Shown here piece by piece: positions 32,814 through 39,530 of a stretch of DNA of 64,000 bases. The stretch is from a bacterium (lineage in GTDB: Bacteria > Sumerlaeota > Sumerlaeia > SLMS01 > JAHLLQ01). The notes below the pieces were generated by a model. The model was given only the letters and a program-made list of their open reading frames with translations, did not search any database and was not told where the DNA came from. Location: contig JAHLLQ010000003.1 of the NCBI GenBank assembly GCA_020444065.1, forward strand, positions 692,979-756,978. The letters run 5' to 3'. Made by a program: the position numbers and the translations under genes. Positions within the stretch are counted from its first letter, which is position 1, and each line of letters opens with the position of its first letter.

Positions 32814-35800
32814 TTAGTAGCTGTCGCAGGTCTCGACGTTCGCGCCGGAATCGTAAGTGTATCCGCTCGCGCTCACGTCATCGACACAAACGGTGAAGGA
32901 AACCGGGTCCTTGCCGAACTTCGAGCTGACGATTGCCGCCAAGCCGGATCCATCCGTCGTCCCGGACACTGTTTCGGAGATGCCTCCAGCGAACGTCACT
33001 GTCACGAGGGCTCCGGAGATCGGATTGTCGCTGGCGTCGACCACGATCACGTCAACCGCGCCCAATGTCTTGCCGCGCGGATCAGGGGTTGTGCTCGGGA
33101 CCATGCTCAGCACATGCAGCGCTTCAGCCGCCGGCGTTGGAGACGGGGTGGGGCTCGGAGTGGGCGAATCGGTGGGCGTCGGCGAATCCGTCGGAGTTGC
33201 GCTCGGAGTCGGAGACGGGGTCGGGCTATCTGTCGGTGTTGGTGTCGGCGTCGGATCGCCGCCACCGCCGTTCACGCTCAGCACGTACATGTGATCGACT
33301 GAGATCGAGTCCAGCGAGTTATTGCCGGAGGACTGATCGGTGTCGACCACGCGAATGTACAGCGTGCCGCTGACATCTTCGCCGAAGGCGTAGGACTGAT
33401 ACTGACCATCATCGCTCGTTTTCGTCACCGTCAGCATCGAGGTGAAGCTGCTGCCGTCGGTCGAGTAGCTGAACGCGAAGTCATCGCCCTCGCTGTTGGC
33501 GCTGTGGAAGGCGCTGACGTAGAAGACGTAGCTGGCGCCGCTCACAACGTTCATGGTCCAGGTGTGATCCAGATAGCTGTGGCGGCTGGAGGGCTTACCG
33601 CCGCTCTCGACTTCCGCCAGTGTTTCGTAGGCCACATCCTGCGCTGCTGTGTCGGCATAGGAGCCGGTCACGATGCTGCCGGCCGCCGTGGCCTCGCTGA
33701 TTGCCACATTCTCCGTGTCCCCGGCCGGGGTGGGAGAGGGCGACGGCGAGGGGCTGGCGCTCGGTGTCGGTGTTGGCGTGGCGCTAGGCGTCGGCGAGGG
33801 AGTCGGGCTCGGAGTAGCCGTTCCGAACGTCTGGCTCGTGTTCGGCTGGCCTTCCGTGCCGGCCAGCGGGCTCTGCCACGTGAACTCGTCGTAGCTTGTG
33901 CCCGTGCCGCCCAACTGCAACGTATCGCCGACCGTGGACGTCGTGGGTTCTTCAACGCCGATGTCGACCGAGGCCATTCCACTGGCCGGGCCATCGGTCG
34001 CACTGAACGAGCCTTCGTAGCTCAGGAACTGGATGACCGTGCTGCTTGCATCGACCAGTGCCATACCGTCGGGCGAGCCGTTCTGCAGGCCCGCGAAGTC
34101 GAACCACAGCGTGCCGTAGCCGCTCTGCTGATCCGGAATCGTCCCGGACAGGCTGACCGAATCAAACACGCCGCCATCGGCGCCATTATAGCCGTACAAG
34201 GTCCAGCCACTCAGATTGGTTCCTGCGACGCCGGCAACTTCGATGCCTTCGCCGGTATCGATGCTGTCGTTGTCGTAGTGGAACTCATTGATCCAGGCCG
34301 TTCCACCCGCGACCGGGGTCGGGGAGGGCGACGGGCTGGGGCTGGCCGTCGGAGACGGGCTCGGCGACGGAGAGGGACTCGGGCTCGGGGAAGGTGATGG
34401 GCTTGGGCTCGGGGAAGGCGTCGGGCTGGGTGTCGGCGACGGAGACGGGCTCGGCGTCGCAGCGCCCTCGAACGTCTGGTTCGTGTTCGGCTGGCCTTCC
34501 GTGCCATCCAGCGAGTTCTGCCAGGTGAAGTCGGCGTAGGTGCTGCCCGTACCGCCAAGCTGCAGCGTGTAACCGACAGTGGCCGTTGTGGCTTCCTGGA
34601 CACCGACGTCGTCGGAGGTCATGCCGTTCGCCGGGCCGTCCGTCGCGGTGATCTGGCCTTCGTAGCTCAGGAACTGCACCACGCTGCCGGTGTCGTCGAC
34701 CAGCGCCATGCCGTCCGGCGAGCCGTTCTGCAGGCCGGCGAAGGCGAACCAGATCGTGCCGAAGCCGTTCTCCTGGTCCGCGATCGTGCCGGACAGAGAG
34801 ACGGAATCGTAAACCGCGCCGCCGTTGCCGTTGTAACCGTACAGCGTCCAGCCACTCAGATTGGTTCCAGCCGGACCGGCGACTTCGATACCTTCGCCGG
34901 TGTCGGTGCTGTCGTTATCATAGTGGAATTCGTTGATCCATGCCACGCCGCCGGGACTCGAAGTCGGGGTCGGGGTCGGCGTTGCCGTCGGATCGCCAGG
35001 CGTCGGGCTCGGGGTCGGAGTCGCGGAGCAATCGCCGCCCCAAATCACGCAGACGTATTCGGGGTGATCGACAAACGGGTTACGATTCCCCTGGTACGTG
35101 TAGACGATGTGGTTCTGGCGCTGCTCGTTGATATCGACCGGGTCCGCGGCGCTCCATTCCAGCAGCGTCGTCAGGCGGCCCATGTAGGCCGGCGACGAAT
35201 CGCTGACCTGGATGAGGTTCATGTTATCGGTCAGGATTAGATCCGGCTCGCTCTTGCCGGTCGGCGTGTGGGTTCCGCCTTCGTAGCGGACATCCATATA
35301 GAAGAGACCGCGTGCGACATCGCCTTTGCGGAAACCCCATGTTTCCCAGCGATCGCCGCCAACCCAGTTCGAGTTCCCTGGATAGACGCCGCTGCCGCCG
35401 CCCACGCCGTTCGTCAGAAGCGTCGGCTTCTCGGTGCCGGTTGGGACGTAATCGTAGGGGCTATTGTTGCGGGACGAGTTGTATCCCCAGTCGCATGCCC
35501 TCAGGTGATGGCAGTCGGTGTAGGGGATGGTGCTCTCGGAAGAAAAGCCGAAGGACTTCGGCCACGTGTGCTCACGGTTAAACCCGGTCGATTCATGATC
35601 CAGCTTATCGATCGAACGGTTCTGATAAATGTCGATCACATTGCTGCTATTATTCGGATCCTCATCCGCCGACTCAATAATGTCCCACGTATCGGTGGCG
35701 GTGGAGGTGTACGGATACCAAGTGTGATCTTTGATGATTTCGTGGAGAGAACTGCGGAGGGTGTTGGCATTCGATGTGTCGGCCGTATCATAATATCCGG

Positions 35801-35918
35801 CCGGTGGGCTGTACTGGGCGAACGAGATACCGGCGATTGCCAGGACGGAGGCTGTAGCCAGTAGTCTGCCCTTTGACTGATACAACTGCCTTTGCAGAGT
35901 GATTGGTGCGAATCTCAT
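32814..35918 (-). CDS. Secreted endonuclease I family protein with two lamin-tail domains
   Basis: 1034 residues from ATG 35918, chosen for GAGGAG six nt upstream. A signal peptide precedes [10 protein letters not shown]. Residues about 30-295 are an endonuclease I domain with [11 protein letters not shown] (catalytic His region) and [19 protein letters not shown] Thr/Pro linker leads to a lamin-tail-like domain ([20 protein letters not shown], about 325-485). A long Ser/Pro/Thr linker and a second copy (about 545-700) follow. The protein ends with a beta-sandwich (about 740-890), another linker and a Big_1-like Ig domain ([18 protein letters not shown]). The family degrades extracellular DNA or RNA non-specifically. 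It has a close paralogue upstream. Confidence 0.9.
34316..34460 (-). repeat. Degenerate tandem repeat coding for the Ser/Pro/Thr linker
   Basis: GC-rich hexamer-like units (GGGCTCGG, GGCGACGG) encode the alternating S-P-S-P-T-P linker between the two lamin-tail domains. It is coding low complexity and likely to vary in length. Confidence 0.7.
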
Positions 35919-36019
35919 CTGGGGCTCCTCAACCAACGGGGGGTTATGGATTAAGTGGCGTCCTAAAACTTAATCCAGGTTGGCGTTCCTGTAAGACATA
36001 CCCCCCCTGCGTAAAGCAA
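35919..36019 (-). promoter_or_regulatory. Promoter and structured leader of nuclease gene 1
   Basis: Minus strand, in order: TTGCTT (36014-36019), 18 nt, CTTACA (35990-35995), 11 nt, CTGGATTAAGT (35968-35978). Then comes ACTTAATCC (35948-35956), which pairs with GGATTAAGT as a 9-bp hairpin. CCCCCC (35938-35943) and GAGGAG (35925-35930) follow before ATG 35918. The same order and spacing precede the paralogue at 38734. Confidence 0.65.
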
Positions 36020-36130
36020 CCTTTTTTTGTTCGCGAAGGTCTAAAACGGCTTTTTTACATTAATGACCCTAAAAATGTGTTTTTTTTGCCCTCTGATCGA
36101 CGCTGTGTATTTCGAGATGCGCATAAAGAA

Positions 36131-36151
36131 GGGGCCCCGCGAAGGGGCCCC
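36131..36151 (-). terminator. Intrinsic terminator of the second nuclease gene
   Basis: GGGGCCCC (36131-36138) pairs with GGGGCCCC (36144-36151), followed on the minus strand by CTTCTTT. It is the same design as the terminator at 32770-32790. Confidence 0.82.
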
Positions 36152-36175
36152 AGGAACGTCAGGTTTTGGGTTTGG

Positions 36176-38734
36176 TTAGTAGCTGTCGCAGCTTTCGACA
36201 TTGGCGCCGGAGTCGTACGTGTAGCCAGTGGCGCTCACGTCATCGACGCAGGCCGTGAAGGAGTTCAGGCGTCGGGACCGATCGTTCGTAATCAACGTCA
36301 CCCAGCCAGATCCGTCGGTTGAGCCAGCGAGCGTTTCATTGACGTCGCCGGAGAAGGTTACCGTCACGACCGCTCCCGAGACGGGGCTTCCTGATGCATC
36401 GACAATCAGGATATCTGCCCTGCCACCATCCCAGCGGCGATTCAACTGCTCGACGCTCGGAATAATGCTGTCCACATGGGCGGCTCCCGCGGCGGGAGTC
36501 GGCGAAGGACTTGGGGACGGAGTCGGAGAAGGCGTCGGCGAGGGCGTCGCTGTCGGAGTCGCCGTCGGGGTTGGCGTGGCACTGCCGAAGAATTGGTTCG
36601 TGTTCGGAAGGCCTTCGGTGCCGGCCATCGAGTTCTGCCACGCGAAGTCCGCGTACGCAGTACCGGTTCCGCCGAGCTGCAGCGTATCGCCCACCGTTGA
36701 GGTGGATGCTTCGCTGACGCCAACATCGGTCGAGCTCATGCCGTTGGCCGGGCCATCGGTCGCTGTGAAGCTGCCCTCGTAGCTGAGGAACTGGACGACG
36801 CTGCCGGAGCCGTCCACCAATGCCATGCCGTCCGGGGAACCATTCTGGAGACCCGCGAAATCGAACCACAGCGTGCCGTAACCGGCCTGCTGATCGGGAA
36901 TCGAGCCAGTCAGGTTCACTGTGCCGAACGAGGTTCCGCCGTTCCCGTTGTAGCCGACAAGCGACCAGCCGGAAAGGTCCGTGCCGGCGACACCGGCGAC
37001 TTCGATGCCTTCGCCCGTGTCGGTGCTGTCGTTATCATAGTGGAACTCGTTGATCCAGGCGCTGCCACCGGCCGCCGGAGTGGGGGAGGGCGACGGGCTT
37101 GGACTGGGACTCGGGCTCGGCGAGGGAGTAGGACTCGGCGAAGGCGAGGGGCTCGGGCTTGGAGACGGCGTGGGACTCGGCGAAGGTGACGGACTTGGGC
37201 TCGGCGAGGGAGTCGGAGAAGGCGTCGGGCTCGGAGTCGGGCTGGCCGTCGGAGACGGCGTCGCGCCACCGCTGAATGTCTGGTTCACATTCGGCTGGCC
37301 TTCCGTCCCGGCCTGCGAGTTCTCCCACACGAAGTCCGCGTAGCTACTGCCGGTGCCGCCGAGCTGCAGCGTGTCGCCGACCGTAGCCGTGGAGGATTCG
37401 CTGACACCAACATCGTCAGAGGTCATGCCTCCGGCGGGGCCATCGGCTGCTGTGATCTGGCCTTCGTAGCTCAGGAACTGGACGACGGATCCGGTGTCGT
37501 CGACAAGTGCGATGCCGTCCGGCGAGCCGTTCTGAAGACCGGTGAAGGCAAACCACGCGGTTCCGAAGCCACCCTGCTGATCGGCCAGAATGCCAGAGAG
37601 GCTGACCGAATTATAGACGGTGCCGCCGTTGCCATTGTAGCCGTACAGGGTCCAGCCGCTCAGGTCGGTACCGGCCGAGCCGGCGACCTCGATGCCTTCG
37701 CCGGTATCGCTGCTGTTGTTGTCGTAGTGGAATTCATTAATCCACGCAACGCCACCGGGGCTCGAAGTCGGCGTCGGGGTCGGAGTCGCCGTCGGGCCGC
37801 CAGGCGTCGGGCTTGGCGTCGGGGTCGGAGTCGGATTGCCGGAGCAGCCGCCATTCCAGACGATGCAAACGTATTCCGGGTGATCCACGAACGGGTTACG
37901 ATTGCCCTGGAAATTGTAAACGATGTCGTTGCGGCGCTGTTCCATGAGATCGACCGGATCGCTTGCGCTCCAGTCGAGCAGCGACGACAGGCGGCCCATG
38001 TACGCGGGCGATGCGTCGCTGACTTGAATCAAAGACATATTGTCGGTCAGGATCAGATCGGGTTCAGACTTCCCGGACGGCGCGTGAGTTCCCCCCTCGT
38101 AGCGGACGTCCAGATAGAAGAGACTGCGGGCCACGTCGCCCTTACGGTAATTCCACGTTTCCCAATTTGTTCCGTCGTTCCAGTTCGAGTTGCCGGGATA
38201 CGTGCCGCTGCCGCCGCCGACACCATTGGTCAGCACGGTCGGCTTCTCCGATCCGCCCGGGGCGAAATCGTAAGGGTTATTGCTTCGCGAGGAGTTGTAT
38301 CCCCAGTCGCAAGCGCGCAGGTGATGGCAGTCCGTGTAAGGCACGTTGCTGCTGACAGAAAAGCCATAGGACTTCGGCCAACTGTGCTCGCGATTGAATC
38401 CGCTCGAAGTATGATCCGTCTTCGAGATCGAGCGATTCATGTAGAGGTCGATCACGTTGCCGCTGTTATTCGGATCCTCATCGGCCGACTCGATGATGTC
38501 CCACGTGTCGGTCGCGGATGATGTGTACGGATACCAAGTGTGATCTTTGATGATGTTGTGGAGAGAGTTTCGCAGCGCCGTGGCGCTGGAGGTATCTGCC
38601 GTGTCGTAATAACCGGCCGGGGGACCGTACTGTGCGAACGAAACGCCCGCGAGAACGACGCATGCCGTTGTCGCCAGAACGCGCTTCCTTGCACGATTCG
38701 CCTGCTTCCGGGTCTTCAAAATGCCAAACTGCAT
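36176..38734 (-). CDS. Secreted endonuclease I family protein with two lamin-tail domains (paralogue)
   Basis: 852 residues; GAGGAG lies 5 nt before ATG 38734. A signal peptide ends VLAGVSFAQ. The endonuclease I domain (about 35-295) has [13 protein letters not shown] and [19 protein letters not shown], nearly identical to its neighbour. Two lamin-tail-like domains follow (about 328-485 and 560-715), separated by a Ser/Pro/Thr linker of about 65 residues. A last Ig-like domain ([22 protein letters not shown]) ends in the same [11 protein letters not shown]-type tail as the neighbour. It lacks the extra beta-sandwich of the first protein. Tandem duplication followed by domain gain or loss is inferred. 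Confidence 0.9.
37078..37263 (-). repeat. Degenerate tandem repeat coding for the Ser/Pro/Thr linker
   Basis: Repeated GGCGAAGGCGAGGGGCTCGG-like units encode the S-P-S-P-T-P linker of the second nuclease. The frame is maintained. Confidence 0.7.
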
Positions 38735-38836
38735 TGTTGCTCCTCACTCTGGGGGGAATGCGGATCAAGAAACGGAGTGCGAACACTTAATCCAGGATAA
38801 CGTAGGTTTAAGTGTGCTGGCTTCTCTTGAGTGCAA
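38735..38836 (-). promoter_or_regulatory. Promoter and structured leader of nuclease gene 2
   Basis: Minus strand: TTGCAC (38831-38836), 18 nt, CTTAAA (38807-38812), 11 nt, CTGGATTAAGT (38785-38795). Then CTTGATCC (38762-38769) can pair with GGATTAAG through one G-U pair. CCCCCC (38751-38756) and GAGGAG (38740-38745) follow. Spacing is identical to gene 1 for the first three elements. The loop sequences differ. Confidence 0.65.
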
Positions 38837-38969
38837 GGACTTTTTATGAACAAATGCAGATATTGTAATATTTACACGATATTCTAACGATTGGAGAGGT
38901 CCAATTTCGTGGCTTTTTCTGCGAAGGGGTGTTGATCAGGCAATTCGGAGAGGACTTGCACGAAAGTCA

Positions 38970-39530
38970 TTAGCTTCCAAATCGCATCAATCGATCACGA
39001 TGGAGGTCTGCGAGGAGTTCGTTGTGCAGTTCGCACATCCGATGAGAGGGCCTGCGTTTGCGGCGATATTGATGAACGAAGTGATGCCCGAGCTCGTGGC
39101 AGAAGATCACATCGAAGAACCAGATTCCGAGATCGCGCTCATTGCGCCAGCGGATTTCTATCCCATCTAACATCTCTGAAACCTGTGCTCCCCAATTCCT
39201 CATCCCATCGCACCAGTTCTCGTTGAGCGATTCCCATGTCCACACCCGCGGCAGCGAATAACACACAATGCGTCGCTCGTTCTCCCAATACTGCGCGAAC
39301 GGTTCCCCGACAGAGTTGCTTCGCGGAAGAAACTCGATCTCGCGCAAGCCGAACAGATAGTGCGGCGGAATTGAGCGAAGCAGCTTTCGGAACAGCCCCT
39401 TCGACACCGCATCGACATCGCCGGGATAGGGCTTTCGAAAAACGACGCGCGGCCCGGGTCGATGCCCGCGCCGCGCCTGGCGTTTTCGTGCGATGATTTG
39501 TTCCGGATCCGTGTGCCGGCTTCGAGACAT
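38970..39530 (-). CDS. Small HExxH metalloprotease-like protein
   Basis: 186 residues, starting 6 nt after the lon stop with GAGG upstream, so probably co-transcribed with lon. The C-terminal half has FFDVIFCHELGHHFVHQYRRK: an HELGH zinc motif followed about 25 residues later by HNELLADLHRDRL, where the Glu or Asp could be the third ligand. The N-terminus is basic (KRQARRGHRPGPR). There is no signal peptide. This minimal zincin layout occurs in several peptidase families; I cannot assign one. A peptidase role beside the Lon protease is plausible but inferred. Confidence 0.65.
   Translation of the reverse strand: MSRSRHTDPEQIIARKRQARRGHRPGPRVVFRKPYPGDVDAVSKGLFRKLLRSIPPHYLFGLREIEFLPRSNSVGEPFAQYWENERRIVCYSLPRVWTWESLNENWCDGMRNWGAQVSEMLDGIEIRWRNERDLGIWFFDVIFCHELGHHFVHQYRRKRRPSHRMCELHNELLADLHRDRLMRFGS

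Follow-up and report, generated by a model that had tools for sequence, protein, structure and literature searches.

The locus described here raises the question whether the leader shared by two neighboring nuclease genes is a regulatory element kept by selection, and whether such an element would act in RNA or in DNA. The initial annotation of this DNA left the choice between an RNA regulator and a common operator open, and the data lean to a sequence-specific element. Both genes are on the minus strand of the 64,000-nucleotide stretch of Sumerlaeota DNA that was analyzed (the window). Gene 1 (36176..38734) was identified from the open reading frame list as coding for an 852-aa Endonuclease_1 (EndA/NucM-type) protein (PF04231, E=2.1e-34), while the list and protein comparison defined gene 2 (32814..35918) as its tandem paralogue. 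The PF04231 domain is N-terminal in both proteins, with scores of 119.7 bits for gene 1 and 110.4 bits for gene 2 (cut-off 25), and the N-terminal 301 aa of gene 1 are 74% identical to gene 2. Both proteins also contain LTD-like domains, of which the match in gene 1 was sub-threshold in the profile search, and linkers rich in Ser/Pro/Thr. The start of gene 2 was re-assigned to the ATG at 35918, which has GAGGAG ahead of it, in place of the TTG at 35936 given by the mechanical open reading frame list. In both translations a basic N-terminus is followed by a hydrophobic stretch up to an AGVSFAQ/AGISFAQ-like site, and a crude export-signal rule accepted gene 1 and not gene 2. Judging from their translations, the two genes are predicted to encode secreted Endonuclease_1 nucleases.

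The comparison of the two coding regions suggests that they are old duplicates. The identity at fourfold-degenerate sites varies between 0.39 and 0.55 along the genes and is ~50% overall, and the protein identity in the signal-peptide region is 39%. Between the paralogues (32814-38734) the identity is 88% in the area of the first LTD-like domain, 79% in the nuclease part and 61% at the C-terminus. Since fourfold sites are ~50% identical throughout, the high identity of the LTD part suggests strong constraint on this domain, and not recent conversion. Downstream of gene 1 there is an intrinsic-terminator-like hairpin (36131..36151, minus strand) with eight pairs, all of them G-C, and a T-rich tail; hence, the two genes are probably separate transcription units, and a promoter of its own is very probable for gene 2. 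A 186-aa open reading frame between lon and gene 1 (38970-39530, minus strand) contains a HELGHH metalloprotease-like motif and has no Pfam match.

Direct reading showed that the leaders of both genes have the same order of elements on the minus strand, which is TTGC-N20-CTTA-N13-CTGGATTAAGT, loop, second arm, CCCCCC, GAGGAG and ATG. The TTGC (38833..38836 in gene 1 and 36016..36019 in gene 2) is located 20 nt ahead of CTTA (38809..38812 and 35992..35995, respectively), which in turn is 13 nt ahead of CTGGATTAAGT. The initial annotation was right that these three elements are equally spaced in both genes, while its distances of 18 and 11 nt were miscounted. As it had also described, the 8-nt arm GGATTAAG can pair perfectly with CTTAATCC in gene 2, or with one G-U within the 8 bp with CTTGATCC in gene 1. 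The complete hairpin or inverted repeat, called P1 here, has nine pairs in both genes: in gene 1 (38761..38794) it consists of TGGATTAAG and CTTGATCCG separated by 16 nt, with two G-U pairs, and in gene 2 (35947..35977) of TGGATTAAG and CTTAATCCA separated by 13 nt. T19 is paired with A in gene 2 and with G in gene 1, and the gene 2 stem reaches 10 Watson-Crick pairs with an inner T-A. The loops between the 8-bp arms, earlier put at about 11 and 15 nt, measure 13 nt in gene 2, or 11 nt when its 10-bp stem is counted, and 16 nt in gene 1. The reported CCCCCC (38751..38756 in gene 1 and 35938..35943 in gene 2), followed by the Shine-Dalgarno sequence GAGGAG (38740..38745 and 35925..35930), was found in both leaders, with 15 and 16 nt between P1 and the Shine-Dalgarno sequence in the two genes. 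The C-tract can sit in the loop of a small second hairpin, which has five pairs in gene 1 (CAUUC/GAGUG) and four in gene 2 (UAAC/GUUG). The leader region of gene 2 also contains a G7 tract (36001-36007), which is not present in gene 1.

The conservation of this leader exceeds that of the fourfold sites, which supports the earlier proposal that it was selectively kept. The alignment of gene 1 and gene 2 that starts at CTTA and ends with the stem has 49 ungapped columns, of which 35 are identical, including an invariant run of 12 nt, CCTGGATTAAGT, which reaches past the stem on both sides. In simulations the joint probability of 35/49 and the 12-nt run was 3e-4 at a neutral identity of 0.50 and 2e-3 at 0.55, and these values are optimistic, because the segment was picked after being seen. 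As fourfold sites are ~50% and the signal-peptide region 39% identical, neither recent conversion nor the youth of the duplication accounts for the block. Upstream of CTTA the in-register identity is 20-40%, with 20% in the 20 nt that separate it from TTGC, which leaves TTGC without independent support. The proposed shared promoter was not borne out as a sigma-70 promoter: a scan for sigma-70 -35/-10 hexamers at 16-18 nt, which does not cover other sigma factors, gave no sites in 35800-39000, and the TTGC match alone was not significant. Within P1, seven of nine pairs are unchanged between the genes and two differ as A/G opposite U (U-A versus U-G), while no pair is altered on both sides, as far as two sequences can tell. 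A stem as good as that of gene 1 was found in 26 of 331 leaders of the genome (~8%), and one as good as that of gene 2 in eight (2.4%), and many of the other leaders with high-scoring stems resemble coding sequence or terminators that belong to upstream genes. Hence, a hairpin like this is unusual in the genome without being exceptional, and what stands out is that it was conserved between the two genes.

The block is restricted to this gene pair in all the collections that were searched. In the 5.2-Mb genome the stem was not found outside the two leaders, a 28-mer pattern with 21 specified positions and up to three mismatches matched only these leaders, and other matches to CTTAATCCNG were mostly within coding sequence. 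A covariance model of the leader returned only its two inputs from the own genome, one chance-level match (E=4.6) from 39 other genomes of the phylum, and no match from 75 related loci; the initial annotation had counted a lack of further examples, along with uncompensated stem-breaking divergence in orthologues, against its proposal, and on the first of these points the outcome goes against it. The leaders of three further Endonuclease_1 paralogues of the genome do not contain the block. Outside the genome, even the closest homologues do not exceed roughly 60% identity over the main match, their leaders do not align, and no nuclease leader examined in the phylum has the block. There were no matches to Rfam 15 at the gathering threshold in the entire window, and a search of the literature on nuclease leader RNAs and on regulatory RNA of Sumerlaeota found nothing relevant. 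Two apparent further copies were rejected. The exact stem TGGATTAAG/CTTAATCCA occurs in one genome (G028; L156, ~1501-1534) among 40 of the phylum, which is about the number expected by our estimate and probably due to chance; it is intergenic, upstream of a dihydrolipoamide-dehydrogenase-like gene, and no C-tract or ribosome site adjoins it. The sequence CTTA-N13-CTGGATTAAGT was also present in 79 viral contigs, roughly the chance number estimated for 15 fixed bases, and none of them had the second arm.

These data are best explained by a cis-regulatory site specific to the pair, an operator or promoter element kept after the tandem duplication, to which we give close to, but short of, an even chance. 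According to this explanation the duplication would have produced both nuclease genes, now separate transcription units, and each copy would have retained the ancestral block CTTA-N13-CTGGATTAAGT-N-CTTRATCC. The block would then most likely be a sequence-specific binding site that contains repeats of a CTTAATCC-like half-site and allows one regulator to control both genes, and the inverted repeat may additionally form a hairpin in the mRNA, at its 5′ end or close to it. The block itself, its fixed spacing, its above-neutral conservation and its restriction to the pair are observed directly, while protein binding, action at the DNA level and co-regulation of the two genes are what we infer from them. 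A sequence-specific element is favored by the fact that the arms are kept as sequence, with seven of nine pairs invariant and no compensatory change, and that the invariant block outgrows the stem; as about half of the neutral sites have changed, selection on structure alone should have let pairs switch. The CTTA at a fixed 13 nt in both genes also counts for a DNA site, and in gene 1 a further inverted copy, ACACTTAAACC facing GGATTAAGTGT, fits repeated half-sites. On the other hand, the arm-to-arm distance differs by 3 nt, which is awkward for a dimer site in DNA and tolerable for an RNA loop. The 28-mer pattern search revealed no other site in the genome and hence no visible regulon, and no regulator gene was recognized among the checked flanking genes, which are those of cytochrome c biogenesis, Lon and a sugar ABC transporter. 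The entire argument is based on two sequences. The motif itself is real, its function probable, and its role local and of an ordinary kind.

An alternative, which we consider rather doubtful, is that P1, together with the C-tract, gives the mRNA a structured 5′ UTR directly ahead of the ribosome site. Such a leader would control translation or protect the mRNA 5′ end, and its C-tract, shown in the small second loop, could base-pair with a partner RNA rich in G. It is consistent with this view that both arm differences (A/G opposite U) preserve pairing, that sliding the arms by 1-3 nt lowers the pairing from 100% to 25-53%, that the indel sits in the loop, and that the spacing of P1 and the Shine-Dalgarno sequence is kept. 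The possibility of a second hairpin around the C-tract in both genes, formed by different pairs (five and four, with chance levels of ~1.5% and ~4%), also fits an RNA. However, P1 shows no compensatory change, the folding energies are weak in comparison to shuffled sequences (z from -0.4 to -2.1), gene 1 in the longer transcripts tested favors another pairing, CUUAAACC with GGAUUAAG, and neither the covariance model nor Rfam gave another member. The preferred fold varies with the transcription start, and the folding energies do not decide between DNA and RNA. If transcribed, the G7 tract of gene 2 would sequester the C-tract, and this pairing was rejected as a common feature of the leaders because it is specific to gene 2; a CsrA/RsmA site with GGA motifs was rejected as well, since ACAGGA is present in gene 2 only. 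A dedicated RNA regulator is thus possible but unsupported beyond the two sequences.

It is improbable, in our estimate, that the block is only what remains of the similarity between duplicated promoter regions, in which the hairpin would have no present function, the pairing and the C-tract would be coincidental, and only the ribosome site would be selected. The presence of the block in the two tandem copies only, its lack in the other three paralogues and in the examined nuclease leaders of relatives, and the comparable stems in ~8% (gene 1) and 2.4% (gene 2) of the leaders of the genome are all as expected from such drift. However, at ~50% fourfold identity, drift is unlikely to have left 12 nt invariant and preserved both arms (P from 3e-4 to 2e-3), a figure that is weakened by the choice of the segment after it had been seen.

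The occurrence of C-tracts was also compared across the genome. The sequence CCCCCC is located within 45 nt of the start codon in five of 235 leaders, two of which are those of gene 1 and gene 2. Among the five Endonuclease_1 paralogues, four carry C6 close to the start, including L013 and L015, where it is just before or near the ATG, and C5-C6 is present near the start of six of the seven fully checked Endonuclease_1 and EEP nuclease genes, against a baseline of 12/331 (3.6%). A genome-wide search for C5-AGGA-ATG gave ~20 open frames, some of which are probably not genes, and which include, in addition to gene 1 and gene 2, two paralogous secreted EEP nucleases, L150/L182 (G000:C3:499098, minus strand) and L176/L193 (G000:C3:453708, minus strand). 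These two are 78% identical, and their leaders carry AGCCCCCATT(T)C..AAGGAG ahead of the start codon. Both members of this EEP family in the genome have C5. No tract is present in at least two further EEP-domain genes, L197 and L203, whose products look secreted. As a general feature of genes of secreted proteins the C-tract was rejected, because the difference (4/75 versus 8/256) was not significant. The set of nuclease C-tracts was found post hoc and serves as a lead only. It is very improbable that P1 and a C-tract displayed in a loop beside the ribosome site constitute a Sumerlaeota-specific RNA leader of extracellular nuclease genes, with a C-tract common to more secreted nucleases of the genome and read by a common trans-acting factor.

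Hence, the leader shared by gene 1 and gene 2 probably does not represent a new class of RNA regulator, but a local switch of an ordinary kind that was passed on when the genes were duplicated. It provides a concrete, testable candidate for the control of DNA-degrading enzymes in a group that is uncultivated and believed to use extracellular polymers for growth; beyond that, it is the normal case of duplicated genes retaining a control region. Both genes match strongly the Endonuclease I/EndA-NucM family (PF04231), homologues of which are widespread in several phyla, and differ from these relatives in their long Ser/Pro/Thr-rich linkers, their LTD-like domains and their leader, which is not common to the family. 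The Rfam families of cis-regulatory leaders are likewise located upstream of the ribosome site, while the leader studied here has two copies and no Rfam match. The 5′-UTR stem-loops of the ompA type stabilize mRNA, and they are likewise hairpins that precede the ribosome site and follow the promoter region in genes whose products are exported; unlike them, the leader of gene 1 and gene 2 is conserved as sequence and without compensatory evidence. A further comparison is to operators or promoters shared by tandem duplicates, such as the inverted-repeat operators of the TetR/MarR/GntR type. While these systems differ from the pair described here, for which neither a regulator nor a regulon nor a promoter consensus could be identified, the leaders of gene 1 and gene 2 resemble them in having short inverted repeats at fixed spacing before paralogous genes.
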